64,000 nt of DNA from Halichondria panicea (lineage: Eukaryota > Porifera > Demospongiae > Suberitida > Halichondriidae): NCBI RefSeq assembly GCF_963675165.1, contig NC_087377.1, forward strand, positions 5,890,042 to 5,954,041, written 5' to 3'. Positions 16,224 through 62,426 of the stretch are shown here, in pieces (the stretch's first letter is position 1; every line of letters begins with the position of its first letter). Under the pieces are notes generated by a model, which was not told where the DNA came from, made no database searches, and saw only the letters and a list, made by a program, of their open reading frames with translations. Made by a program: the position numbers and the translations under genes.

Positions 16224-19200
16224 GTGTGTGGTCCCGCCTTTCCTTGAGAAACTTCTCTGATTCATTTCTGTAAAAGAAGAGTATAACTATACCGTATATA
16301 ATACAGCAAGTATGATTATTTGGCAAATGAGACAATTCTCTTATTCACCGTTAGTTGTGTTTGCATTGTAACGATTGAGCAGTTACAGCTGGCAGGCACG
16401 CACATAATTATACAGTAAGCTTACTGCCTACCTCCCATAGCTATGTATACCCCAGCTATAGCGTGAATCACGTACTGGAACAGACACATGCACAGTATAA
16501 TCCTTGCTACTCTCTGTACCTGCTGTATAGAAATCCATCCATTGAGATTGGTACTTGCTAGTATGTTGCTCATAATGTCCAATACATTCTGTATTCAAAA
16601 AACTGTTTAGAAGCTTATAACAATTTGAAAACTACTTTGATCATATAACGTTATGGTAGACCAAAAGTGGGTGAGGTACAATGTATACCCATCAAAATCA
16701 AAGCTAGCTACGTAGCTCCAGAAACCACAAATATTATATATATGGAGGCTTTATTGAACAATAATTAACTATACGAAGAAGTATACAGATACGGACGTGC
16801 TCATCAAATACCTCATAATTATTATAGTCTAACTTACAAAATTTGGAATGCTGACTTGAATCTCCCCCTCTTGTATCTCCTCTAGCAGCTCAAGAATTGT
16901 GTTGATCAGCTGATTGGAGACATCCAGGTCTGATGGTAGGATGGAGACACGCCTACCTATGGAAGTGTATCAGTACGTGGGTGAATAGATGCAGCAGATT
17001 ATCAGCCAAATGGCATGTTATTATACAGGGTGAGATTCAAGCTTTGTGCATGGATCTATTCCATACTGAAATAATATCGAGAATGTGTATGCATAGTTAC
17101 GGTCTTGCCTAGAGGTGCTGTTTGGAGCCTGACTTCATCGAAGATATCGACAGAGTTGACTAATCTTGTTTCAATATCGTCATCGTCAAATATAGACATA
17201 ATCTATGGGGAAAGGACACTGTCTAGTAATAACTCCAACAACAATACCGTATATCAGGTTTAGAATGCGAGATTAATTAAATCGATTGCGAATGACACTG
17301 TACAAGCCTGATTGCGTTTGTAACTGCATGTAAAACATGGACTCTTCGCGTTTCTTTTGAGTGAAAATTCGCAATTCATATCGTAAGAATGGCATTCGAA
17401 ACACAATATTGTGATCATGAAGTGCAGAGCTAGGGTTGGCATCCACACATGGACAACATAGTCACGACCGATAGAAAGGGGATATACTGCATGTTGTCAC
17501 AACTCTTAAATATAAGCATAATAATTATGCATAAGGTTTACTGACTCACATCATCTTGTAGTAGTGAAAAGCGATAAGATCCACACTGGTCAGCCTGTGC
17601 TTTCATCCATCCTTTGGGGCTACAGTCTCGTGTAATGAAACCTAAGAGGGATTGCATGAGAGTGTACCTAAAGCATGAAATTAATTACTAACACACAAAT
17701 AATTATAATCATAACCTTATAAACAACGTATAGGGACATTCACTAAACTATCACAAGACATAGTAAACAGTACTAACAAGTAGAATTACGTTCCTATATG
17801 AAGTTAATTACTTCGCATACACAGTCATGCTCTACGGCCATAGAGTCACAAACTAACAACTCTAGATCTGCATTGTCTCACCAGGTCCCTGAGGACACCT
17901 TTGCATGTCAGTCTGCCCTGGTAGAGTGTTCCCCCAGGACACCTCCCACACTTCGTCCTCTTCCATTAGACAACCACTACTAAAGCCTGTATAGAAGAGG
18001 AACACCAGGATGCTTTCAAATTTTGATTTTGAATTTGCTAAAAAGCAATACATGCATCTATATAGTGGGCACTTAAAAGCAGATACAGTTGTAATGCATG
18101 CATAGCATGAACTTGAACTTGTGCAGTGCAGCTAGCTAGTTTGAAGTTCAGTGAATACAAATATTAATTAATTCGATAAAGTGAAGATCGAACTTCACAA
18201 TTATAATTAAGTTTATAAACACCAAAAACATTTCGAAAATCATATAAAAAAAATCATTGCGTTGGTTTCTCTATCTCTTCACTGTATAATATTTTGTCTC
18301 TGGACCTGTTCTGCCTTGCTTCTGTCATAGGCGATCCAAAGCCAGACTCTTTCGACATACTGTGATCCAATGGATCGAATACATCCGAGGAGCATGATCC
18401 TTTTCTGGAGACATAAGGACTATCAGTGAAAGCGGAATCAGCTTGTGAAGGTCTTCTTGGACCGTTTTCTACTTGTAAAAAACTACTCGAATCTTGTGAT
18501 GGATTTTGGAGCTTGGTAATGTCACGATGTGGCAGCATCAGACCTAATGTTAATTTGCACTGTTAAAACACATAGATCTACTAGCATTGTACCATTACAC
18601 TTTACCTGCTCGTTGCTTTATTTTGTGCTTTTGAAGTATGTATAGAGTATCCATGGAAACTGGAAGAATGGCAGCCATTACTCGAACAGGGATATCGTAG
18701 GTTAGCTCAACACAGCCATTTCTGACTGTGCGTAAATACAATGCAACCCGCTTCAATTTCAGGGTTTTTGCAATAATTGCTGTGGCAACCGTTATCTGGT
18801 TGATCCTAATTTTATTCCATTCTTCATCAATCTTGAATGAAAATTGCTTTGATCCTTTCATTCCTTTTCCAAATCCAATGGCTGGTACACGACACAGTCT
18901 GTGCTTACAGTACTCCTCCATCTTTGATTTGTACACTTTCAAACGATACATCACATCTTCATCCTTCATACAGAAAGCATTAATGAGAAGCTCAATCAAT
19001 TGATAGTTGAACCAGGAATAATAGCCTCTCAAGAAATCGAAAACCTCATCAATAGTGGAAAACCTTAAAACTTCTCTTTCAAAGAAATAAATTGGTTTTT
19101 TGGCAGCGGTTGTTACAGCAGTAACTGCTTCTATCTCCCCCAAGAATCGAACCAGCAGCTCAACTTTTACATTTCTTTTTTGCATGCTGTCAACCACATT

Positions 19201-22200
19201 CACAATCAACCCAGCAAATTCACCACGAATCGTGAGTGTTTCATTGGATAAATCTCGCTCGGAAAGCTCGACGGTATTGGTCAGAGGTGAAGTGGTATCG
19301 ATTATACCATACAGATTGAGAGAGTCGGTAGAAGCATTAATGGCTGGTTTGTCTGCAACTGTTTCTTCATCAAAAACAACTTCAGGGACAGACGGTAAAA
19401 ACAGCTTAACAGCATCTTGTGTCCATTGACCAACACTTCGCAGAATGTCTACAAATTGAGCCACCACTTCAGGATTATGTCTAGTTCTGTCCGTAACTAC
19501 AGTAACTACTCTAGTAGCCTTGTTCCTTTTACTTACGGACGTTTCACAAACAAAATCACGATCAGCATCAGAAAATAGACCTCTTGCAAACAGTTCTAAC
19601 CCAATTGGTTCTGGGGACTGCTTAATGATATCTACTAAGTCACTGCTTCTACTAACCATAAGAGAGTGCTCAGAAAGACAACACCTAGCAGTAGCCATTG
19701 TTATCGACAAATATTTTGCTTAGCAACGTCTTGCTTGACTTCAGAAAAATAAACACACTAATGAATGCTATTATGTATTATTAACATTGTATAATAGGTA
19801 TATTCATGTTCCCATAGTGACGATACTTATAATTTTCGTTCAAAGAGCTTACCTGTTACGTTTTTATGCATTACCATAATTATACCCAGGTTGAGGTTGT
19901 TTTGATTGCGCAAACAAAAGACACACAAAGAGTGCATGCTTCACATGGCAATAATTATTAAGGCTTGTACACATGCAGTGTCATTCGCAAATGATTATAA
20001 CTAACATTTGAAACTTGTAATATTTTCGGAGGGCTATACTGACTGTAGTTGTTCCTTAAACAGTTGCATTATAATAATTAACAGTCATTATTTTACGTCA
20101 GCCTAATACCTAAATTGAAGTGAGTATGTTACATACACAACGAATTTTACTTTACATGAACACAGCAGCTTATACTGTCATACATTCACATTATATTGCG
20201 TACGACGTACCATTAAAAGTGCATACGTATTCAAAATCACTCACCTAATGGTGCGATACACTTGGTCACGTCCTGAGCCGGGTTATAATGAGAGGGGCAG
20301 TTGTCCTGGGGTGTGGTGTGTCGAGAGAGGAGATCATACATTTTAATATAGTGCGCTAAAGTTGGAGCTGTATATCAGCTATAGCTTCGTTCCCAGGCCA
20401 ATTTGTCTCTAAAATAACGCTAGGTCGCCTCTTAGTGTTTCTATTCGCTCCACCTTGCTCAGGTAATTGCTCGTTTGGTTAAAAACACTTTCCCGATTAT
20501 ACTGCTGTACATAAAACTATACTGTTGTACCAACGTCTGATTGGCCACTTACAGGTATACAATACGAGACATTTCTTTGATCACTGCTCAGGTCAGCACA
20601 GCTCTCGAGGAGCACGTTAGGGTAGCCATCACCGTCCTCATCCACAGTACAAGTCTCACCATCTCCAATGAAGTAGGGGAAGAAACACTGCAACAAAAGA
20701 GGAGTGGCGATTTGTACACAGTGTTTTAAAAATGTAATGACAATTATACATCAAAAGGAAGTTTTGCTATTAATTGCCACCTAACAATTCAAAACTGAAG
20801 GTGACCGTTGATTATACTTATAAGAAAGAGTAAGGACTTAGGAGGAGTTCAACATACGGTAATAATCTGTATGCTAAACATGACGATTGCAACAGAATAC
20901 AAGTAAAATATACCCGACAAGTGTTGTTCATGTCTTTACAAGAGCAGGCTGGGATTGGGACAATGTCCTCACAGAGACCAAGAAATACTTGATCAGTGGG
21001 TTGTTTACAGAGGCAGGAGTCTGTATGAGTGTATGCATGTGTGTGATGAGGAGGTTGGGTGGGTGTATAATTATCCAAATGGAAATAATTATACCAGAAT
21101 TTATACCGCATAATCAGAAAAAATAATCAGCATAAATCCTTGTAGTCAAACGTATGAATGCAATAAATAATATTAACTAATAAGCAGAGCCCTAGGCAAC
21201 TTTCGAGGCCTTACGATGTGTACATGCATGCACATGCAGTGTACAAACTATTTATAACTCTTTAATTGCTACTATACTTATACTTTAATTCTGACCTGCT
21301 TCATAGAATCCTTGTACACCCCACGGTGCGCCCACAGCAGTAGCCAGTCCACCAATAACAGCTTGACCTGTGTAGCACATCAAAGGCTAGCTGATCAATA
21401 CCAGTGTTTAAGATTGATAATTGAACTCCCATAATTATACATGTACATGTGTACTGTGCGTAACTTGACTTGGATGCTATATAGGTCAATTAGCAAATAA
21501 AAAGAAACCTGTTCATAAAGGTCACCCCAACAGTGGTTGTAATAAAGTGGTGGCCCACTTTATAACACGTACAGTCATACCATGTAGCTGCCAATAAGGA
21601 TAGCGTGTTTGCTTATATAGGGTGATCAATACTACTGTGACAGTAGGTGAAGTAATTAAAGCAATTTACCTGCTTCAAACGCAGGTCCGGTCACATTCAG
21701 AGTAGCCACAAGTCCAGGAGAGGGTTGTCTCATTGCTAGTGTAAGCAGGAAAGTGGCACTAAGGTAGGTAGTGGGCTTGGTCACCTCTACCGTACTGAGC
21801 AGACTGAGAGGAAGGGTAGAGGACACACTGAGCAGCCGGTATATCTGGGTGGGTGGGTAGATGATTAATGTTATGGTACGGCACTAATAATTTAACCATG
21901 CGTATATTAATTTCCTCAATTTAAAAATTTCTTGTTATTAAATAATGGCATGGCTTCTACATATGTTTTCCAGACTCGATCATATGTAATTCTTGCCTCG
22001 GCTTTGACTTGAGGGAGTGCTGATGTTAACTGTGGCTCATCCACAGCTAATGGTATCCATATCAACATGAAGGCTCGGCTATCAACTTGTTCAGCATTGA
22101 ATGAGCACCCAGAGTAGTCAAGGGGAGACCAGGTTCCATTGGTGCATGTACGGGTGATGGTACCAGCTAGTGTGTGCATGTACAGATGATGGTATCGACA

Positions 22201-26132: not shown

Positions 26133-45088
<18,956 letters not shown>

Positions 45089-45763
45089 ATTCTCTTTACA
45101 TACACATAATTACCATAGCCATTTTTTACCATGTTTTAAACCCTTCACCTGATTATGATGACTGGTGAATCAAGTACAAGCTCTATTAATTTTGTTGATA
45201 GTGAAAACAAAAACAGTTAGTGTATATACATATACATGCCAGTGACTTTCTATAATTATGCTAACATTGAAAACAAAAGTACATCTGTTTTGTCAACAAT
45301 GCATGCTTCTCGGGTGTTGTATAATACGTACACTGACTCGGTGCAAACAGCTACACAGATCTAATTAATACTAGCCTATCTCATTACTGTGAGTTTGTAA
45401 AACTAGATAACAAGATCTAGACTGCATTGAAGGTCATACAGTAGCCTCCCTCACAGGCCTTGGATTGGGATCGAGGCTATAAGCCTGTACAGGTATTATA
45501 GATCTAGCTATCAGATATGAAACAACCCTACAGTGCATGCATAATTATACATACATGTGTAAGGTTGCATGTAGATATATCTATCATAGTACTGTAAGTC
45601 CATAGGCTATGGCTTCATGTGCTCTGCAAGTGAAACTTTAGAACAGTACATGGTAGATGTAATCAAATACAACAAAGTACACATGACCTAAACAGTATTG
45701 ATACTGTTGTATGTATTCACACTTAAGCAATGCAAGCCTTTATAGCAGTGTTCTCAGGCAATA
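45089..45763. other. Intergenic region between C and D
   Basis: It holds the 3' UTR of C and the promoter of D. I saw no gene, only ATAATTAT-type palindromes. Confidence 0.6.
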
Positions 45764-47023
45764 ATGGATTCACACAGCATCAAGATAAACAAGTTGACTA
45801 ACAAGCTGAATGCTCAAGGAATTTCTCAAAGGAAAATCGAGAGAAGCAGAAAGGTACTGTCTGAATACTATTTACTGGCACTGGCACTCTGTTTTCTAGC
45901 ACTTACTTCATATGTGTTCAAAGTGAAGTACACAAATCAGTTATTTGTAAACGAGCAAAAACATATGTGCGAAAAAAACATAACGTTAACACAGTTGAAT
46001 CTTATGATGATGAGCCTCAAAGAGTGCCAGACTCGACTCAATAAAAATGAACTACTAACAATAACACCTGATTTAGAAAATCTTCAGGATTTTTTGATGA
46101 GAATTGAGCAGTCTGCAGTGAAAGACATTCGCTTATTCGAGTTAAACAGTCTTTCCTTTCAAGTGAAAAAAATTGAAGAATATATTCAGAAGTTTTCTTG
46201 TAACAAAAATACTGTTGAGAACCCTGCTAAATCTTGCAGCAAGTTGCCTCAAGGCAGCTTATCAGGAGAATACTGGATCACTGGCAGTGACAATTCTCCA
46301 ATACCTGTCTATTGCAGCACTAATCGCAAGAACTGCCATTGCAACACTACAGGGGGGTGGATGAAGGTAGCTGATATTGATATGACTGACCCCTACAAAA
46401 AGTGTCCAGATGGTTTCAAAGTGATCAACAGAACTGAATCACCTCTACGAACTTGTGGCCGTACGGATTCTCTCAAACGATGCGCTTCAACTACGTTTCC
46501 AGTACATGGAGTCAAATATTCACATGTGTGTGGACGAATTATTGGCTACCAAGTTGGATCTCCAGATGCCTTTTATCCATTTATCCATTTAGGGCAATCG
46601 ATTGATGGTTATTACATCAACGGTATTAGTCTCACACATGGAAAATCACCAAGGCAACACATATGGTCGTTCGCAGGTGCAGTTGGAGAAAGTTACCACG
46701 GAGGAGATGATAGTTTATGCCCTTGCATTAACAATCGAGAATCAGCCAGCAATATTCCTCTATTTGTTGGGAATGACTATTTCTGTGACACAGCTTTGAG
46801 AGGTCACAATTTTTCGGTTGGCTTTTTCTATCAGAAAGATCCACTATGGGACGGACAAGGATGTGGAAGTACTAGTAGTTGTTGTGAGTGTAACAAGGCT
46901 CCTTGGTTTTGTAAGCAGCTTCTTTATACAACTGCTGATGATATTGAGTTGAGAATATGCAACGAAGAAGATGCATCTGTCGATGATACACCTTTTGAGA
47001 TCGTGGAACTGTACGTTCACTAG
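45764..47023 (+). CDS. Intronless type II membrane protein 'D' with fibrinogen-like C-terminus
   Basis: One open frame of 419 residues. After a basic N-terminus a single hydrophobic segment (residues about 33-50, YLLALALCFLALTSYVF) should anchor it with the C-terminus outside. Residues 70-150 are helical, likely a stalk. From about residue 160 the sequence resembles fibrinogen-related proteins (SCSKLPQGSLSGEYWI, then GGWMKVADIDM). It then follows a family pattern I recall from sponge and cnidarian predictions: CGRIIGYQVGSPDAFYP, GISLTHGKSPRQHIWSFA, FVGNDYFCDT, DPLWDGQGCG and a final IVELYV. Around 20 extracellular cysteines suggest many disulphides. A lectin-like recognition role is inference. 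No intron is visible, unlike every neighbour. Confidence 0.88.
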   Translation: MDSHSIKINKLTNKLNAQGISQRKIERSRKVLSEYYLLALALCFLALTSYVFKVKYTNQLFVNEQKHMCEKNITLTQLNLMMMSLKECQTRLNKNELLTITPDLENLQDFLMRIEQSAVKDIRLFELNSLSFQVKKIEEYIQKFSCNKNTVENPAKSCSKLPQGSLSGEYWITGSDNSPIPVYCSTNRKNCHCNTTGGWMKVADIDMTDPYKKCPDGFKVINRTESPLRTCGRTDSLKRCASTTFPVHGVKYSHVCGRIIGYQVGSPDAFYPFIHLGQSIDGYYINGISLTHGKSPRQHIWSFAGAVGESYHGGDDSLCPCINNRESASNIPLFVGNDYFCDTALRGHNFSVGFFYQKDPLWDGQGCGSTSSCCECNKAPWFCKQLLYTTADDIELRICNEEDASVDDTPFEIVELYVH

Positions 47024-50152: not shown

Positions 50153-51888
50153 ATGGCTCATTTTCCACCAAAGAACATGGAAGACATATTGAAAAGCTAT
50201 GATGTCATCGAAGTGGGAGAGTTTCTAATGAATGAGAATATTCTGTCGGAAAGAGAGTTCAGAACCATTAAAACTCTCCGACACAAGCAAGATATTACCA
50301 GTTTCTTAACTCAAATGCTCAAAGGAGATTTATGTCGGCTTGAAATGTTTCGCAAGGCAATGATAAAATTTTCTATGGATGCCATGTATAGAACCATTAG
50401 CCAGCTTTCAGAATGGAGTTCTAGTTTACCAACTACAGTGGAGTCAGAGTGTTATCATGACACGTCCAAAGAGAAAGATGTAAACATGCTATTTTATGCT
50501 CATAATGTATATGGTCAACCGTCAGTTGATAGGCTTGCTCGAGTGAGTCAAGCAATAACTTGTGTATGTGATTTTACTAGCTAGTTGTATAAGCTTGTAA
50601 AGCAATGGTATCACTACGTATAGACTGCAGTCAATAAAACACCATCAATCATTAATTTAACTGGACTTCGTTAACATAAGCATATACTTCCAGGCATAGA
50701 TTTATGTGTATTCCCTTAATTGTTTATATCCTGCATTCTTGAGTGCATTATCCATGGGTGTTGTTCGTAAAAGAGGTAAACGAGTATTCTGCATGTAACT
50801 AATGCCCAGAATTTGTATTCCCATACCTATGCATGTAATTCACCGTCCTGTGTTTTTACCCTTTAAAGGCATTTTGCTTGTGGCAACCAGATCACGAGTA
50901 AAATTTTATGCACTTGCTCACTTTTTACATGCAGTCAATCAGTCAAGAAACTGGATATGATACTGAGTACCCTACGTATACAATGTCCCAACAACTGAGA
51001 AATATTCCAAAGTTAAAACACGCCACTGCCCAACCTAAGCCAAAGAGAAGTGAAGCAGTGCTGCAAGCACATACGAGCAGAAAAGAACGTTCAAAATCTA
51101 ATAGTGTAGTGAAAATTACAAATAACTATATACATGTGGTTCCACAAGATGTTTCAACAACTACTTCATCTAGAGTCAGACCAGTGTTATTGTCATTTCG
51201 CCACCGCCACCAAGCTGTACGTGATATAAATTTAGTATCATATCAATTACATAAAGAATATTAGTGACTGCATTCTTTTCCATAATTATTATAGGGAGCC
51301 TACTGTGATCAATTGTTACCACGATCAAGTGGCCAGTTGAAAGGTGAGTGAACTTTACTCTATTATGGCAGTATACTGTTATAATTATAACCGTCATGCC
51401 CCCCGGCCAGAGGAAAGTTATCATGTTATCCTTGATATAAAGTACAAACTAATGCCAGGAGCTAGGCACTTAAGTCCCAAATGAACACGTAGTACACAAA
51501 AAATGCCACCTCATGCCAAAATTTACAAGCTATATACATGCATCTACTAACAGAACAAAATTCGACAGATGTGATGCTCAAATGTTTTAGAGACCTACTA
51601 AAGGAATGCAGTCATGAGCTATTTAGCAGCTTGAATGTGGATTCCTTACTGCCACACCTACAAAAGGAGCGGCTGGTGACACACGAAGAGTTTCAGACTC
51701 TCATTCACCCATCGAAAACGAGCCAAGAGAAGAAGAACTTTTTATTGTCAATTCTACCTTCTAAAGGGGAAAATGCATATGAAGGATTTCTCACTTGTCT
51801 GACCAATGCAGATGACCATTCAGGACATTCGTATTTGGTCAAACTATTGACTAGGTTGCTTCCGTCAAAATCTGTAACATTTGTTTAG
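50153..51888 (+). CDS. Two-death-fold adaptor 'E1' with C-terminal CARD
   Basis: Exons 50153-50542, 50935-51216, 51296-51341 and 51554-51888 join in frame to about 350 residues. Residues about 5-80 (MEDILKSYDVIEVGEFLM, LSEREFRTIKTLRHK) look like a death-fold bundle, DED or CARD type. The middle is basic and Ser/Thr-rich with KITNNYIHVVPQD. The last exon is a clear CARD: FRDLLKECSHELFSSLNV, LLPHLQKERLVTHEEFQTL, FLLSILPSKGENAYEGFLTC, GHSYLVKLLTRLL. The first donor could also be GTAAAC at 50480, but GTGAGT at 50543 is stronger and keeps phase. It probably acts as a cytoplasmic adaptor. E2 is its tandem paralogue. Confidence 0.83.
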
Positions 51889-52384
51889 GCTGAGCATATT
51901 AATTTTGTGTGAGTCTATCCAGGCAGAGGCCCACACTATACCATACATTATTATGACACTACAAACATTATCGGACTATACTTATTATTATTGAAATCTG
52001 TAATTTTCGTAAAGGTATACATTGTCAGATGACTATAATTATTTCGGAGAATGAATAAAATTTTCGCTGAGTGTTTATACGTTTGGAGATGGGTTTCCAC
52101 CATGGATACTCCACTCCATGCACGCGCATGCATGCCTGTAATTATTGTTGCACGGGCTTTTGTGTCCACATGCACCAGTCGTGACTGTACGGATTACGTG
52201 TATTATGATAACAAAGACGCATCCCCCACACGGCTGACAATGCAATACTCGAACGTTAGGCTAGAGTTGGTAGTCGGTACTAATTATACGGTGTAGAAAT
52301 ACCCACAGGCTCATTAAGTTTATTGTGCATATGCATGCATACATGTACTAGTTTTGTCCTACTGTTGTGTTTCTGAGTGTAGAT
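51889..52384. other. Spacer between E1 and E2
   Basis: About 500 bp with no gene seen. It must carry the 3' end of E1 and the promoter of E2. Confidence 0.55.
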
Positions 52385-54932
52385 ATGGATCAGCCAAGAG
52401 CTGTTGAGCGAACAAGGTTGGAGAAACTTTTGCAGCACTACGACATCAAAGATTTTATCAGATTTCTAGCTAAAAAGAAGTTTCTATCTGCTTTTGAACA
52501 TACACTTCTATCTAGACTTACCAAGAAAGAAACCATTAACCACCTAGCTAAGAGAGACCAACTTGAAGGGGGCCTCATGGACATTTTTCTTCAGTACACT
52601 AACTTTGTCTTCGAAGATGTGAACTTGGTACTTTCTGAGATTTTAAGAGACCAGAGATTGTTCCCACCCAAACAAGAATCTGATTCTGATTCCTTTTCAT
52701 CATCATCTTTCTCAGAAGATTCTGACCCTGGCCAGTACAGCCAAGAAAGTCCAAATGTAAGTATATGATAATAATCATTATGCTAGACTGGTACTAGAGG
52801 TCTGGAAATACATTTCGAGGGTATAAAACATTTGCGTTTTTCACTGATTAAGCATGTACCGTCAAAAATATACCCACGAATTTAATATCACATACATGCA
52901 TGCGCCAAAAGGCTGACACTATAGTCAATGAATGCGAAATCTTTTATAACGATCTTTCCGCAAAAGTTTATACCTTCGAAATAATTATATGGTATTAGCA
53001 CAACAGCTATAGTTCTAAACATAAAAACGGTCACCAGGGTAAATGAACGAACCAGAAAATGATTTTTGTGATCTAATTATACAGTCATGTTTGTTAAACC
53101 GTATGGCTTTAGAATGCGAGGTTCTTTCGATCACAAATTGCGAGTTTTTGGATAGACTGCACAAACGAAAGACACGCAAAGAGTGAGCTTGGTGCATGCA
53201 ATTTCGCATGCTTCACATGCAGACATGCCCAATATAATAGACTCTCGTTAATCCGGTCACCCTTGGGACAGTGCAGTTTGGCCGCAATAGCGAGGTGGTT
53301 CCATTTTAGAAAACGCGGTCCTGTTTCAAATGTAATGACTATAATTTTGCAGTTCTGTCTCGAGATTAATGAAGATAATGCTCTCTATTTATACCAAATC
53401 ACACCCAAAACATCCTATCCAGCTGTAATTAACGTATCAAAAATCTAGTTTGGAGTAGTCAGAACTGAACCAGTATACGGAATATCGAGTGGCCGCATTT
53501 CAGAGCGAGTTTTGTGCTGCAATGATCAAGCCAGCAATCAGTGCCAAACGAAACGACCGTAATTCAGAGAGCCGGATTATCGAGAGTCTACTGTAGTTAG
53601 ACAACAACTATACTAGCTATTATATACACACTAATAGTCATGTGTATTACAGATACGCATGAGAATACATGTATATTCCCACATGAATGTGGGAGTTAAT
53701 GTGAACGCTGTTTATGATAAAGATTTTTGCTGATGCATGCAGACATTAAGTATTGTATGCTTATGCAGGACATAATGAATGTCTAGCTATACACACTAAC
53801 ATCAATATGTTTTACAGATACGCATGAGAATACGTGTATTCCCACATGAATGGTGGGAGTTAATGTGAACGCTGTTTATGATTGCTGATGCATGCAGACA
53901 TCCAGTATGGTGTGCTTTATGCAGGACATAAGTGAATGTTCAGCTATTGTTGATGATCCTGGGTATTGTACACAAAGCAATTCACTGGGATGTTCTCTGA
54001 CAAATGATGTTCAGCTTCCTTCTCCGGAGTACCTCGAAGCAACCAGTAGACAATTGCAACCAGCAACAATGCATCCTTCACGACCGAAGAAAAACAGACG
54101 CTCAGGGCATGTGTACTTCACAACCAATAATTATTTCAATTCAGTGCCTATGAACTCAAGCTTGCCGTTGACACAACACTGGATTCCAAATCAGGTGACA
54201 ATTTTGTGTAAATAATTTAAAGTTTTCCTTGAAATGTCAAATAAGTAATTTGCATACTTGTGTGATGATGGCCTGCATAATAATAATTATAAGCTAGCTA
54301 TACACATAATGATCTGTCCATTCCGATAGCTTTAATTTACCACACATAATTATCTCTTAAATTTTTAATATACTGATAGAGAATTGAGCTCCCTACAACC
54401 TGTAACTCTATTATAGCTCCCTTGTGTAAAATGCTGCAAAATACACCATTGCATAGATGATTTAAGTTCATGCAGCAGTATTATCGTACCTTATAATTAA
54501 TTATGCCAATTGCAATTTAGATAAATAACGTTTATGCTGCAGGGTTATAGTGCAGCGACAGACACAGACAGCCAATTTTCACTACAGTCACCAGTTTATG
54601 GTAGGTGATTCACTTTCAATAATTGTATGTACTTCCTTACCACAGAGAAGATTGAAAACTTCAAGCTAGTACTACAAAAATGCAACCGTGAGCTTATAGA
54701 ATGCTTAAACGTACGATCACTGCTACCATATCTTATTGAGCAAGAACTTTTGACTTCAGATGAATATGAAACCCTTAAAATGGGGACCCGAAATGAGCAA
54801 AATCAGTCACTATTACATATACTACCCTCAAAAGGTGAACATGCTTGCAAACGATTCCTCAAATGCTTAAACCAAGAAAAGGAGCACTTGGGCCATAAAC
54901 AGCTTGCAACACGTCTGAGTGGTATGATATAA
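52385..54932 (+). CDS. Two-death-fold adaptor 'E2' with C-terminal CARD
   Basis: Exons 52385-52756, 53925-54194, 54543-54600 and 54646-54932 give about 328 residues, with the same exon number and phases as E1. The N-terminal fold reads LEKLLQHYDIKDFIRFLAKK, FLSAFEHTLLSRL, followed by a Ser/Asp cluster (DSDSFSSSSFSEDSD) that could be phosphorylated. The linker shares the TNNY..SVP motif of E1. The CARD reads FKLVLQKCNRELIECLNV, LLPYLIEQELLTSDEYETL, LLHILPSKGEHACKRFLKC, LGHKQLATRL. ATG at 52385 is the first in frame after TGTAG, which could also be an acceptor from a 5' UTR exon. Confidence 0.85.
52812..52984. repeat. Inverted-repeat element in the first intron of E2
   Basis: ATTTCGAGGGTATAAAACAT and TTTGCG at the left are inverted at the right as CGCAAAAGTTTATACCTTCG AAAT. 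A short palindrome ATACATGCATGC sits in the middle. Confidence 0.7.
53096..53222. repeat. AATGCGAG dispersed repeat, copy in E2 intron
   Basis: TTTAGAATGCGAGG, AAATTGCGAG, AAAGACACGCAAAGAGTG and GCATGCTTCACATG are shared in part with copies near 17258-17412, 19868-20015 and 62588-62752. Confidence 0.6.
53237..53595. mobile_element. pogo/Tigger-like non-autonomous element, copy 1
   Basis: It starts TAGACTCTCGTTAATCCGG and ends CCGGATTATCGAGAGTCTA. The interior TGGCCGCAATAGCGAGGTGG matches the copy at 57981-58412. Ends of this kind with TA targets are known for the pogo/Tigger group; the assignment is from memory. It lies in the first intron of E2. Confidence 0.75.
53623..53945 (+). repeat. 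Tandem duplication covering a splice acceptor of E2
   Basis: Two copies of about 160 bp share ACAGATACGCATGAGAATAC, CCCACATGAATG, GGGAGTTAATGTGAACGC and GATGCATGCAGACAT. Both end in TATGCAGGACATAA, the acceptor and first codons of exon 2. Only the second copy stays open; the first reads into a stop (GTCTAG) within five codons. Confidence 0.85.
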
Positions 54933-55382: not shown

Positions 55383-58300
55383 TCATGCATTTGTGCTGGT
55401 ATCGGCCCACCCCAGTTCAAAGTGCAGTGTGATAGTTCCCTTGCCATTCTTTAGTGGGAGGTGTTGGTTCTTTAATTGCAGTGAGCTCACCCCCTGACTC
55501 ATGTTGACCTTCAACCTCTGGGCGACGGCCATCATCTGAATGTCGACACCACCAAGATACTCTGCATTATTATATTGAAAAAATGTACAAACAGATTAAG
55601 TAAGACGCAGATCGAGGTAATCATGTTTATAAATCGTAGGGAAAAATTAAAAACGCCACGGATGCCTATCGCCTCAGCGGAAGCTTTTTTAATAACATGA
55701 TTTAGTTTCCATGCATGCAGGGAATGGTGTAAAAAAGTAGGAAAAAAAGCATGATTGTGTTGTCAAAAAGGAATATTCATGTCCATGATTGAATGGCTAT
55801 AACAGCCTCCCCCTTTGTCACAGTGCAGTGCACATCTTTCCACAATATTATTTTATGCAGCTACCAATAGCTAGCGCTGTATAGAGCAGAGCTAACTACT
55901 AAATAGAATAGCATAATAATTATAATTATGGGTTTAATCATAATTATTATTTTTATAGATAATTAAAGGAGAAATGGTCAACGGGAGGGCTCTAGCTTTT
56001 AAAAGAGTATGGCTATCTACATAGTGCAGCTTATAAGTCATATCTACTTAATAGCCTAGAAATATGGGGGGGGGGTTCTAGGGCCCCCCCTTCCTAATGC
56101 AGTGGTGTACGAAGAGGGGGGGGGGGGAGCCACGATGCATTCAAGAAAGGCCTGCATGTGTGGCACGAAATTCTCAGAATCACAGTTATAGAATAATATA
56201 CTAAGATCGATGCATGCGACTATAATTATGACCACTACAAGACTGCATGCTCAATTTACTCTTATCTACTCTTGCTTCATAGTATACCGGTGCATGTAGA
56301 TACACAAGACAGCAAGGTAAATTAAATGACACATGTATGATTAGCCGGCAATACCCACCATCAGGACTAGTTATCCTCTCAGTGTAGAACTCTATCCAGA
56401 CTGTTTCAGTGAGAGAAAAGTCCACAAACTCAAACTGTGTCAAATTAATGGATGGAGTTATAAAGACAACAATAATAATAATTATAACACAACTACTGCA
56501 TGTACAGTCATCTTAAAGGGTAGATATACATGCATTGCCCTACCCCACTAGCTGGCATCATTTATTGTTCAAATTGCAATTGCCTACCAAAACTTGTATG
56601 TCTAGGAAACAACAACCTTTCTACCTACACTGATGTACACACCTGGTAGTTCCAGGATGGCCAGCACTGAGCCTTCACACTGGGAGTCTTGCACTTTGTA
56701 TCCCCGATCTGTACAGAACAGAAGTGGTTTCTTGTTTTAGCATCCACTTCAACAGCCACATTATTGGCCTCCACAATGGTGAGGGTGAGCTTTGTGTAGG
56801 TGGGACTGGTTGGGAGTTGGCGAACTAGTGAGAGAGCATTCATCAAAATTGGTACTGCTATTTTAGAAATTGTACAGAGTAAAATTATAGCTATAAGTGA
56901 AGCCTGTCTTAATTATACTACATTCCCTGAGAGTAACTACAATCCAGGCACTCAGGCAGGTCCTAAACAAAAAATTACACTACTGTGTATAGCTATAATG
57001 GCCAAATATTTCCCCCAAAGGTGTCTGTTGTACGTAAAGTTAGGGGTTCCATTCTACATGCACCAGTTTAAGATATTATAGTGATACCACGCTTGACTCA
57101 CAATCATCCAAGTATTAATATTATACATGTATTATTATGGAGTGGAGATTAGCATACATTGTCATGTATCAAATTTCAGGGTTTCACCTACACTCCAGCA
57201 ATGTTTACATTGAGTACAACACCCTTTAGTATGACTACTCAACCAAGTAAAAATGGTGACCACTCCCAACAATGCACATGCACTTTCCTTATAATTACAT
57301 AATACGTACATGTGCTGTAAAATTACCCTAAATGCATATCAGAATCGGAACAGAAAAGAGAACTGCTAACAGTGCGTGACTTACTGATATTTCCCTCTGA
57401 TAGCACGGTCTTGGCTAGAGCTTTGGTGCAGGATGCAATGGCAGCATTGAGAGAGTCCACCCAAACGTCCTTGGCCTCCTTGGAGACAGAGTGCAGTGTA
57501 AACTGGATCATCTCTGACCGATCGTCGTAGTGAAGATAGAGTACTTGTGGCTCTGTGCACAAGTGCGAAAGAAACAGTGTAGATACTAACTAATCATCAT
57601 ACAAACAGTGCAGTGGAACCCCTCTTAATGACCATCTCTGATAACTGCCACAATTTTCCCATGAAAGTCCCAAAAAGAACATGCACAAGCAGTTTGTACA
57701 AACAACCCCCCTCAATAACCTATAAGCTTTGTTCCCCCAAAGCTGTCCTAAAGTGTACTCATTGTATGTACAGACAATACTGACAAAGTGATCGTAACTA
57801 GATGGGAATTTCTATAATTATATTAAATCAATGCATGTGTGTACAAGGGTCGGAGCTGGAGCGTATACTTTACTCACCTTTTCTCTTTGACAGTGATCTC
57901 ACAGAGAGATGATTTAGCATTAGAGGCTGCATAAACAAAATCCGACATGTTTATTATAATGAAATTGATACGGTACTGATACAGTAGACTCTCGTTAATC
58001 CGGTCACCCTTGGGACCATGCAGCTTGGCCTGAATAGCGAGGTGGCTGCAGCTCAGGAAATAGCTGCGGCTTAAAAAGGACTGTACCTCGAATCTAATGA
58101 CTACTTTTGCGGTTCTTGTCTCGAGGATAATGTAGGATAATGAATCATTCTGTTCTCTATTTAAGTGTAATCCAATTTTATTTGCTAAACCACACCCAAA
58201 ACGTCATATCCGGCCGTAATACACGTATAAAATTACATTGAAAACCTTGTTTGGGACAGCCAGCACTGGCCGGTAAACGGAATAGCGAGTGGCCGTACTT

Positions 58301-61300
58301 CAGGGTGAGTTTTGTGCAGTAAACATATAGCTAGCATTTCGTGCCAAGCCAAATGGCCGGTATATCGAGGTGGCCGTACTTCAGAGAGCCGGAATAGCGA
58401 GAGTCTACTGTAATACTTGTTTGTGAACGTATTATGTTGTGAAAACTATCCTTACCATCTTGGTAATACACTCCATATCGCTGAACCAGTCCAGTACTGG
58501 TCCTTTAGAGCTGGAGAAGAAGCTCCCCAATCTTCCTGGAAGGATACTGGTCTTCTTACGGGGCTTCAGAATAAGTAACATGTCAGTGAGCAGCACCAGG
58601 AACTTGGGCTGTCCATGCTGCATTGTGTAATAATTATGGCACGTATTATTACATGCACATCAATAACTTTTGTTTGCTGGCAAGGATTATCGAGTTAATT
58701 ATAAACGTGTGCATGAGGAATAGTATAAATAGTGAGCTCTAGATCTTCTAGCGGCCCTGAAACACACTACCGTATACCTCACTTGCATGCGCACTGAGGC
58801 ATAATTACCTTGATATTATTATTGTTGACGTACACACTAATAACTATTGTGACTGCAATGCATTGCACTTAACTTTTGGTGGTTCAGCATAAATATACTA
58901 TCCATGCATTTAAGGGAGTGCTTGCATCATAAAAATCAATTAAAATCTGCTCACCTCATATAGAATACCACTGTTGAGTAACATCCTCTCTTGATTGAAG
59001 TGAGTACGAGACGAGAACAGAATATCCTATAATACAAAATAATTATTATCGATGTAAAGTATAATCAAGCCAATGATAAATTACCTCTGGAGTTCTTTTG
59101 AATCGAACCTTCTCTTGCAGCCATTCAAACTTCTTCATAGATAGTGTCTGTTAAGAAATACATAGTCAATTGTACTAAGATTGGACTGCATAAATTATTT
59201 CCTTATAATTATACCTATGCAGTTTTTTTGCTTAGTTACGAATATGCTATACTGATTCCAAAATTCATTTATGACTACACGTGTTTATACCGCTCAGCTA
59301 TAATTATTGCACTTACCTCACTCCCAGTATCTGAAGCAGTGGCTCCCACGTACTTGCTGACTGATGATCCAGGATCAGTGAACAGACTGAACTCACTTGG
59401 ACTGCGTAGTTTACTGTCGAATGTACTTGTAATTCCGGAATCCTGCGTTGAGATTATTGGAATATGACTTGGAACTTCGGAGATTGTGGACACATTGCTG
59501 CTACTTAATCTGGAGGGGGTGGTGTCTCGTCTGAGAGAAAGGTGTTTATAGTTTGAGGGATGTGGCTGTTGGGGGGTGGGAAAGGTCACAAAGTCGGACA
59601 CGCTGGCTTGAGAGGTGTCGTAGCTCTGAGTGCGTCTGTGAGTCCTCTGCTTTACAGGAACTATATATAAAGGAGGGAAACGTTCAAGTAAGCACGTACT
59701 GTACATGCAGTAGTTTTAGAGTAAGGCTTTCAGACGTTTGGAGCCCCCATTGAATCATGACCGACCAGCCGTTTAATAACATGGTATTTAATTTCATAAT
59801 TATTGCATAGGAATTGGAAAGCTCTTAGATTGTATGTGCATGAATACAGTGGTGACAGATTCCCTAGATATTAAGAATGACTGTGTGCTGCATTTATTAT
59901 AAAAAACATGCCTGGAGGAGGTTTTTCTCTTGTTTGCGCTGGACCAACAGTATCGGGAGACAAGGCTGAAGGCATGTAGGAACCATCATAGGGGAACTGC
60001 TTCGAGGGTGAATCAGACATTCCATATAGTGACATCCCACGCTTCAGTGGTACTGATTGTTTTGGATTTTCTCGCCTCAGTGATGAGTGCTTGGGCCGAT
60101 TTACTGAAAATACCATAACAGGTTCGTTGTTCTCTTGAGAAATAGCTTGGGACGGTTGTCTGGTAGCAATTGTAGTGGGGGCATTTCGGTCGACACTTAC
60201 GAATGAATAGTTCTTTCTCGCGTCTCTTGTTAGTGATCGCCGTTGTTTAACTGGCATGGGAGGTGGTTCTGCATCAGGGGACTCAGCTGTTTCAGACACA
60301 GCTTCAGGGATGGTGGTGTAAGGGGTTGAATCAAGAGTTTTCTTGACTCGTCTCAGTGAATCTCTTCCGCTTGTAGGATTATCAAATCTGCTTTCGTGAC
60401 TGTTTGAGTAACCCACTTGCGAGTTTTCATTCATCATTCCCTGGTAGCTAAACTCTTGTGGCGTAGTAGGAAATTGGAAGACTGACGTTTTGAAATGAGT
60501 CAAATTCTCCAGGACATCAGAGTTCTCTTCTGAAAGTTTGTTACTATCTCTCAAAAGTGGAGTAACTTGAACTCTCCCATCACTAGTACCTTGAAACGAG
60601 CCATGCCTCGAAAGTTTTGAGCGTCTTGTGTTAATGTCTTTCTGTGTTGAGCTCATGGATGTGTAACGAGCTGAGGAATATGGTTTACTTCCACGGGAAT
60701 CTTGTCTCAAATTTGATTCGAATCTTCTTGGCAGTGTAGACGTTTCGTGTGATGTCTCTGGCTTTGATTTAGATGGCAAGGTTTTGAGTATAGGCTGAAA
60801 TGGTACCTCGTTAGTATCGATGTTGGAACTGGATTGATTTGCAATTGAAGAAGCTGATGATCGAGGTGTTACTCGTGTCGGGGTTCTAGGAGAGGGTGTG
60901 GTAGAGCTGTGGGGGGAGTGTCTTCGCTCCTTGGACATTAAGATTGCGGACGGCTTGTTAATGTTTTGACTGTTTCCTCGGAGGGACGATAGTCGCTCTG
61001 GAGAGGGTGGAGGAGTATTGAGATGAGAAGTACCTAGTATTAAGAATTATGCATCTATACAATCAATTAGAATACCACAAGTACGTAATTATAACTATAG
61101 CTAGCTTACTAAAAGGGTTGCTTCGCTTTTTCTCGAGTGCTTCTCTAATCCTCCTAGCCAAATACACATGACCAGAATCAGTCTTTTCAGATGAGATAGC
61201 TTCCACAAATAGCTCAAAGTCTGTCGCTGGAGCACTCGCGATAATTCTTTTTTTCTTCTCCTTTTCTGTTCTGAAGGGGTGCGAGAGGTACTTGAGATCG

Positions 61301-62426
61301 TCGCCTTTTAACAGGTTGTACTGGCTGAGTAGAGGGATGATCACCACTGGGTTTAGATACTAGGCGCATAAAGAAAATTTAATCAGTTGGCAAGGATTAA
61401 CATCATAATTATTATTATTATAGGTATAGCAAAGTATTAGTAATCATTGTAGTTAGAGTGAATACCTACTGTCCTGGAATGAATATCCAGCATGCAGAGC
61501 CTTTACGCCTAAGAGATTATAATGCTCTCGGTTGAGCAATGCACTAGTATATAGAATTGCTGCAAATATAACACTAGAGTAATACCTATATAATTATGTT
61601 TGGACACATGCAGTTATCGTACTTGCACCCACTCTCCTACTGGATGCTCGAGGTTAACGAAGACAGCTTGCGGAATCATCAATTTCGAGCAACTCTTCGG
61701 TAGCTACAGGCCCTAACGTACCCCCGTTCCTATACGTTATGTTTGAGCTAAACTGCAGCAAACAACAATCCAAGAAAACATACTAGAAGCCTATAGAAAC
61801 TCTTACTTGCACTTGATTGATCTTTGAGCAGCTGTAGCAGTCTACACAAACACACATACCTCGCTTGCGCATGTGCACCGAGGCATAATCATGCAGTTGC
61901 CGCCAGAGGAGGTACGACACGCGTGCCTCGATTTAGCAATTAGCCTCTGCAATAACGTTAAGCGTGAGCGGAATTATGCCTTGATTATCCGTCCACGCTC
62001 AAAGTTATTGCATAGGCAAATTGCTAAATCGAGGCACGCGTGTCGTACCTCCTCTGAGTTGCCACCATTTGCGCATTTTATTTGGGAAATGCCTAACTAG
62101 CGTTGCATAATCAGGATTTGCTCGAAATTAATTGGTTGATTCTGGAATTAACTGTTTTCGTTGACCACGAACACCAAGCATAAACAAGTTGCAACTGCTA
62201 TGCAAGTAGAGTCGTACTATGTGCAGTATCATAATAATTATACGGACTGTATAATTATAATACGTACTCCTGTGTGAATGTGAATTTTATAATTTACGGC
62301 TTACCTGCATGAGTTGTGGCCGGAGGTAGTTAAGGATGTCTTGGTTGGCAGAAGACATGGAATGATTGAGCTGACTCTCTTGGGAAGATATAGAGAGAGG
62401 AGACAGAGAGTCACGGCCATCTTCAG
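55383..62426 (-). CDS. CARD-PH-C2 protein 'F'
   Basis: Twelve exons join in phase: 62305-62426, 61110-61359, 59912-61033, 59317-59660, 59085-59147, 58955-59026, 58456-58617, 57878-57926, 57385-57552, 56643-56824, 56359-56434 and 55383-55561, about 929 residues. The N-terminus is a CARD (DILNYLRPQLMQYLNPVV, PLLSQYNLLKGDDLKYL, FELFVEAISSEK, VYLARRIREAL). About 490 Ser/Pro/Thr-rich residues follow, with two similar PPP.PVKQR motifs. A PH domain follows (MLLNSGILYEHGQPKFLVLL to KEAKDVWVDSLNAAI), then a C2 domain (KLTLTIVEANNV to ITLHFELGWADTSTNA, then the stop). No catalytic domain is seen. The 5' end is open: the first exon starts in phase 1, but an ATG at 62358 just before the CARD could be the start. 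It likely brings CARD signalling to membranes (inference). Confidence 0.85.
57605..57760. repeat. Possible terminal fragment of another pogo-like element
   Basis: CAGTGGAACCCCTCTTAATG resembles pogo/Tigger ends, and AACCCCCCTCAATAACC is a second similar block, but no inverted right end was found. Confidence 0.4.
57981..58412. mobile_element. pogo/Tigger-like non-autonomous element, copy 2
   Basis: It starts ACAGTAGACTCTCGTTAATC and ends GAATAGCGAGAGTCTACTGT. It shares TTGGCC.GAATAGCGAGGTGG and TGGCCGTACTTCAG-type blocks with copy 1 (53237-53595) but is longer. It lies in an intron of F inside the PH domain. Confidence 0.78.
59317..61033 (-). other. Ser/Pro-rich linker exons of F with a GC-AG intron
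   Basis: A 1,122-nt exon (59912-61033) and a 344-nt exon (59317-59660) encode a low-complexity linker rich in Ser, Thr, Pro and Arg. They join only if the first ends CTCCAG followed by GCATGT, a GC donor, which gives PPPVPVKQRTHRR. This mirrors PPPMPVKQRRSLTR inside the long exon. Without that splice the frame ends at a stop at 59871. Confidence 0.7.
61905..62055. repeat. Near-perfect 151-bp hairpin in an intron of F
   Basis: The outer arms AGAGGAGGTACGACACGCGT and following GCCTCGATTTAGCAATT (37 nt) are perfectly inverted at the right end. The inner GCCTCTGCAATAACGTTAAG also pairs with the right half with few mismatches, so almost the whole element folds back with a small loop. It lies between F exons 61359 and 62305. 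Confidence 0.92.

Follow-up and report, generated by a model that had tools for sequence, protein, structure and literature searches.

The closest described systems are intersectin-L (ITSN1/ITSN2), the CARD-CC family (CARD9, CARD10, CARD11, CARD14) and the PH-C2 RasGAPs of SynGAP and RASA type. Intersectin contains SH3 domains, typical ligands of which are PxxPx[KR]-like motifs, and a MAGUK-type domain is present in CARD10, CARD11 and CARD14. According to the available parts of the reports, the DH-PH-C2 part is absent from some animal intersectins (PMC3645719), and CARD9-type proteins seed BCL10 via a polymer held by multivalent coiled coils, seeding without coiled-coil help being thought unlikely at physiological concentration (PMC9342958).

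The gene described here was predicted in a stretch of 64,000 nucleotides from the sponge Halichondria panicea (the window) and combines an N-terminal CARD with a C-terminal PH-C2 block of intersectin type. Both intersectin-L and CARD proteins are familiar; it is their join that appears to be new. No CARD joined to PH-C2 or to intersectin was found among the titles and abstract starts listed from the open-licence literature, and the word counts in the available part of PMC12909245 are 15 for 'card' and 0 each for PH domain, C2 domain and intersectin.

Predicted gene model and linker

The CARD-PH-C2 gene lies on the minus strand at 62426-55383 and consists of 12 exons with 906 codons, with the ATG at 62358 and the end of the stop codon at 55383. 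Exon 1 opens with pre-ATG sequence, the 5' end of which is putative because 62426 is the base right after an acceptor-like CAG. All exons were set before any comparison with intersectin. The reading frame is kept at 11 of 11 junctions. Ten of the 11 introns are GT-AG, and intron 3, between exons 3 and 4, is GC-AG (AG/GCATGT). Introns 1 to 11 are 945, 76, 251, 169, 58, 337, 529, 325, 560, 208 and 797 bases long. The predicted features are:

Exon 1, 62305..62426, minus strand, pre-ATG sequence and codons 1-18, CARD first helix region
Exon 2, 61110..61359, minus strand, remaining CARD, aa 19-102 (same-genome CARD profile, model)
Exon 3, 59912..61033, minus strand, linker part 1, aa 102-476, with PPPMPVKQR at aa 358 and the GC donor at its end
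Exon 4, 59317..59660, minus strand, linker part 2, aa 476-590; PPPVPVKQR (aa 473) spans the exon 3/4 junction
Exon 5, 59085..59147, minus strand, first part of the intersectin-like block (DH-PH junction), aa 591-611
Exon 6, 58955..59026, minus strand, PH, aa 612-635
Exon 7, 58456..58617, minus strand, PH, aa 636-689
Exon 8, 57878..57926, minus strand, PH, aa 690-706
Exon 9, 57385..57552, minus strand, last part of PH and the following stretch, aa 706-762
Exon 10, 56643..56824, minus strand, first half of C2, aa 762-822
Exon 11, 56359..56434, minus strand, C2, aa 823-848
Exon 12, 55383..55561, minus strand, last part of C2 and the stop codon
Neighbouring Pfam CARDs, 51589-51822 and 54669-54890, plus strand

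Splice signals and frame are compatible with CARD, linker and PH-C2 being carried by one predicted transcript. The limits 55383-62426 given in the initial annotation were right, as the 12-exon minus-strand model fits within them, and the order claimed there (CARD, linker of about 490 residues, PH, C2) is borne out by the 906-aa gene model. The same annotation saw no enzyme domain, in agreement with the full-length Pfam scan at E <= 10, which returned only C2, PH_13 and PH_CERLI1, the last two under their cut-off.

The linker is 492 residues long in the stretch measured, is composed of 18% Ser, 11% Pro and 10% Thr, and is probably disordered. Four PxxPx[KR] sites are coded on it against 0.64 expected, with at least four in 0.36% of 5,000 shuffles, for a pattern that was picked after the sequence was known. 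Two of the four are copies of a repeated PPPxPVKQR, the second of which is completed across the exon 3/4 junction. These motifs are putative SH3 ligands.

Two repeat structures were found in the introns. In intron 1, a foldback element at 61904-62056 has 69-base arms, 91% complementary and 15 bases apart, and looks like the remnant of a small DNA transposon. A pair of 24-base inverted repeats in intron 7 (57980-58412), 92% complementary and 385 bases apart, is perhaps another small element.

The PH-C2 block and the intersectin gene of the same genome

As a separate piece, C2 was recognised in Pfam at 1.6e-10. PH_13 reached 5e-7 and 30.2 bits on the isolated piece, above the cut-off of 27, and 25.3 bits in the full-length scan, slightly under it. 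When the 906 aa were scanned with Pfam, RhoGEF (DH), EH, SH3 and RasGAP domains gave no match. RhoGEF has 68 matches in the genome (E <= 0.1; exon-by-exon search, from which weak matches may escape), and the contig of the window carries none of them. As the introns flanking exon 4 have only 251 and 169 bases and no RhoGEF match was obtained, the gene probably has no DH.

In the PDB, intersectin-2 (3jzy) was the best match of PH-C2, with E 8.1e-12 in one alignment that includes the DH-PH junction, PH and C2. At E <= 10, 18 distinct sequences were matched, five of them intersectins, one a RhoGEF (in the PH part) and twelve in the C2 part. Among these 18, intersectin-2 is the sole match that covers both PH and C2, and no entry is named as a RasGAP.

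An intersectin-like gene of about 9 kb is coded on the minus strand of another contig of the genome (C16), in the order EH, SH3, RhoGEF (4.6e-31), PH_13 (131 bits) and C2. SH3 was recognised in four of the five scanned frames of L016, the fifth being EH. From this gene the DH-PH-C2 part alone was joined; the joined protein matches intersectin-2 with E 1.4e-117 and aligns with human intersectin-2 along its length. The CARD-PH-C2 protein has 74 identities with the joined C16 protein over 293 aligned positions. All six introns of the C16 PH-C2 region have a counterpart of the same phase within one codon in the CARD-PH-C2 gene, four in the identical alignment column and two one column off, and the latter gene has one extra intron inside the region; the CARD-PH-C2 gene was already known when the C16 splice sites, all of which have AG at the acceptor and GT at the donor, were chosen by hand. 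When seven introns were placed at random in 200,000 trials, at most three of the six were matched.

The intersectin-2 match in the PDB together with the six shared introns is strong evidence that PH-C2 represents a duplicated intersectin-L tail. The two copies are far diverged, since neither of two genome searches recovered both: a search with the PH-C2 protein gave seven matches, all to its own gene, so that it showed no further copy of the fusion but missed the C16 intersectin as well, and an exon-by-exon search with PH_13 (six matches) found the C16 intersectin and missed the CARD-PH-C2 gene. In bacterial and archaeal contigs, searched with a PH-C2 pattern for stray host DNA, 14 matches were obtained and no relative was among them.

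The N-terminal CARD and other features of the window

The CARD (aa 1-101) matched no Pfam family and no PDB sequence at E <= 10, and it is absent among the 27 matches of Pfam CARD (PF00619) in the genome at E <= 0.001, two of which lie beside the gene on the plus strand. A same-genome profile, built from 22 of these 27 matches including the two from the window and leaving out the five others, scored 36.7 bits on the isolated CARD and 31.2 bits on the whole protein. The best of 2,000 shuffled CARD controls had 10.1 bits, against the 36.7 of the real one. Identity of the N-terminal domain as a CARD is taken as established on sequence grounds.

The structural model gives mild support. AlphaFold was run on exon 2 by itself, which lacks the first helix region, and predicted five helices with pLDDT 75.8 and pTM 0.54, from an input alignment with two other CARDs, both from the window; a doubtful fourth row of the earlier CARD alignment had been dropped from the later one. 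In VIA-align, the 11 best of 121 chains were CARD-bearing entries, among them Apaf-1, caspase-9, MAVS and CED-4, with a best Z of 8.5, a value within the chance range for helical bundles. The twelfth chain was a designed protein (Z 6.9), followed by other designed or unrelated helical proteins. Foldseek returned the CARD of CARD9 as the best match with E 0.6, and no match at E <= 0.001. The exon 2 model may be of CARD-type structure, a death fold of six helices.

A search of the whole genome with the CARD protein (E <= 10) gave five matches, including its own two exons, the two CARDs of the neighbour at 5.5e-5 and 0.17, and one on contig C11 at 0.37. The best pairwise match is the neighbouring CARD gene. 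Derivation from this neighbour was considered and left aside, as a tree of 23 CARDs joins the domain instead to a long branch (L018), with support 92/62; that join was flagged as a possible long-branch join, and the placement is unsafe.

The neighbouring CARD gene or genes are situated at 51493-54932 on the plus strand, tail-to-tail with the CARD-PH-C2 gene. Between the two Pfam CARDs, the frame 52352-52768 may by eye be a divergent CARD, although Pfam gave nothing for it at E <= 1. Elsewhere in the window, a 374-aa open frame on the minus strand (18595-19719) likewise matched no Pfam family at E <= 1. On the plus strand, an SRCR exon (26684-27055; 1.4e-14) and a secretin-type 7TM exon (41750-42112; 4.2e-14) were found; one frame between them (29735-30202) matches an Ig-like domain below threshold (0.019). 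In a 425-aa frame on the same strand (45746-47023), the C-terminal domain of fibrillar collagens gives E 0.0074, a weak match below cut-off.

Possible function and relation to known systems

The explanation we lean towards, with some reserve, is that a duplicated intersectin-L PH-C2 was joined to a CARD gene and that its product is a CARD nucleator or adaptor clustered at an intersectin-type site, where it seeds a partner CARD. The 3' part of an intersectin-L gene, starting just past the DH and comprising PH-C2 with its introns, would have been duplicated and joined to a CARD-coding gene. PH-C2 and the proline-rich linker would then gather several copies of the protein at an intersectin-type site on the plasma membrane or on endocytic structures, where the CARDs, once clustered, could seed the partner CARD. 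Nucleation is proposed by analogy with the CARD family, and the clustering, the seeding, the location and the partner are inferred. Possible effectors are present, as the search for the caspase family gave 33 matches in the genome at E <= 0.001. A sponge death-fold adaptor is described as supersaturable, like its human counterpart, in the available part of PMC13012725.

The likeness to the PH-C2 of RasGAPs, suggested in the initial annotation, gave way to intersectin-L. An origin from the SynGAP or RASA group with loss of the GAP domain would account for the identical PH-C2 order, and is nevertheless extremely improbable: the one PDB sequence among the 18 that matches both domains is intersectin-2, six of six introns are common with intersectin, and the PH is of the PH_13 type, for which the C16 intersectin reaches 131 bits. 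Sequence and introns contradict it, in a comparison made via the PDB list and the C16 intersectin gene. We find it unlikely, though not to the same degree, that the locus forms products that overlap. One would be a CARD-linker protein terminating within intron 3 and the other a PH-C2 protein that begins at Met594 or is expressed from an inner promoter, and the fusion would be rare or absent. With a GC donor at the exon 3/4 junction, the CARD half and the PH-C2 half may be carried by separate transcripts, and such donors are enriched in alternatively spliced genes according to the available part of PMC2490688. Reading through past exon 3 leads to a stop at 59871, followed by ATTAAA at 59792 and 59777, and Met594 lies where the PH-C2 block begins. 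Against two products, frame and phase fit at all junctions, PPPVPVKQR needs exons 3 and 4 to be joined and repeats the PPPMPVKQR within exon 3, exon 4 has no Met, and introns 2-4 are short (76, 251 and 169 bases). AATAAA is also present at 59898, ahead of the read-through stop (possible short isoform, 59771-59912).

Membrane targeting, which the initial annotation suggested from PH and C2, is still possible, but the case for it is weaker than was thought. Five C2 aspartates in loops 1 and 3, which we take from synaptotagmin and PKC to be calcium sites, are present in the C16 intersectin used as reference, and none of the five is kept in the CARD-PH-C2 protein, which has V788, N794, T840, R842 and E848 at these places. 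One place is alignment-dependent, because D789 adjoins V788 and a shift by one residue saves one aspartate. The PH strand-1 lysine, presumably a lipid-binding place as in other PH domains, is replaced by E635. Ordinary lipid targeting is less likely because of these losses. Human intersectin-2 is itself without the two loop-1 aspartates, which means that this gene is not alone in having lost some of them. It is worth weighing, if rather doubtful, that PH-C2 no longer binds lipid and binds protein instead, so that the product would be an adaptor in the cytosol or would block a partner CARD as a decoy. Besides the lost residues, the strong divergence from the C16 intersectin fits such a change, and RhoGEF PH domains have low affinity for phosphoinositides in the available part of PMC2892021. 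On the other side, profile searches still pick out both PH and C2, D789 stands beside a replaced place and E848 is still acidic; intersectin-2 lacks the loop-1 pair as well. Moreover, calcium-independent C2 domains are able to bind lipid. About as improbable is a more specific version with membranes, in which a death-fold nucleator reaches the membranes of endocytosis or phagocytosis by means of the captured intersectin tail, and SH3-ligand motifs together with a C2 independent of calcium have replaced the exchange-factor activity; the GC donor would then possibly act as a splice switch between a membrane-addressed and a free form of the CARD. If that were true, uptake sites would be wired directly to CARD signalling in an animal that phagocytoses bacteria.

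Returning to the clustered nucleator that we favour, a site on endocytic membranes would likewise make a direct link between uptake and CARD signalling testable. The locus offers a traceable domain capture, in which an intersectin piece including its introns appears to be attached to a death-fold domain in a sponge. An intersectin-type PH-C2 that evolved without DH would also be useful for asking what PH-C2 does alone.

Compared with the known systems, the protein shares the order PH-C2 with the RasGAPs and differs from them in that Pfam recognised no RasGAP domain in it, and both sequence and introns favour intersectin. Like the CARD-CC proteins, it is a larger protein that starts with a CARD and has no recognised enzyme domain, and seeding by a clustered CARD, described for that family in the available part of PMC9342958, is proposed for it as well; it differs in its C-terminal PH-C2 and in that the scan with Pfam gave no MAGUK-type domain. 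Intersectin-L has EH, SH3 and DH, none of which was found in the CARD-PH-C2 protein, where a CARD and a long linker are present instead, and the calcium-loop aspartates of the C16 intersectin are lost. With intersectin-L it has in common homologous PH and C2 domains, the DH-PH junction and all six PH-C2 introns of the intersectin gene of the same genome.
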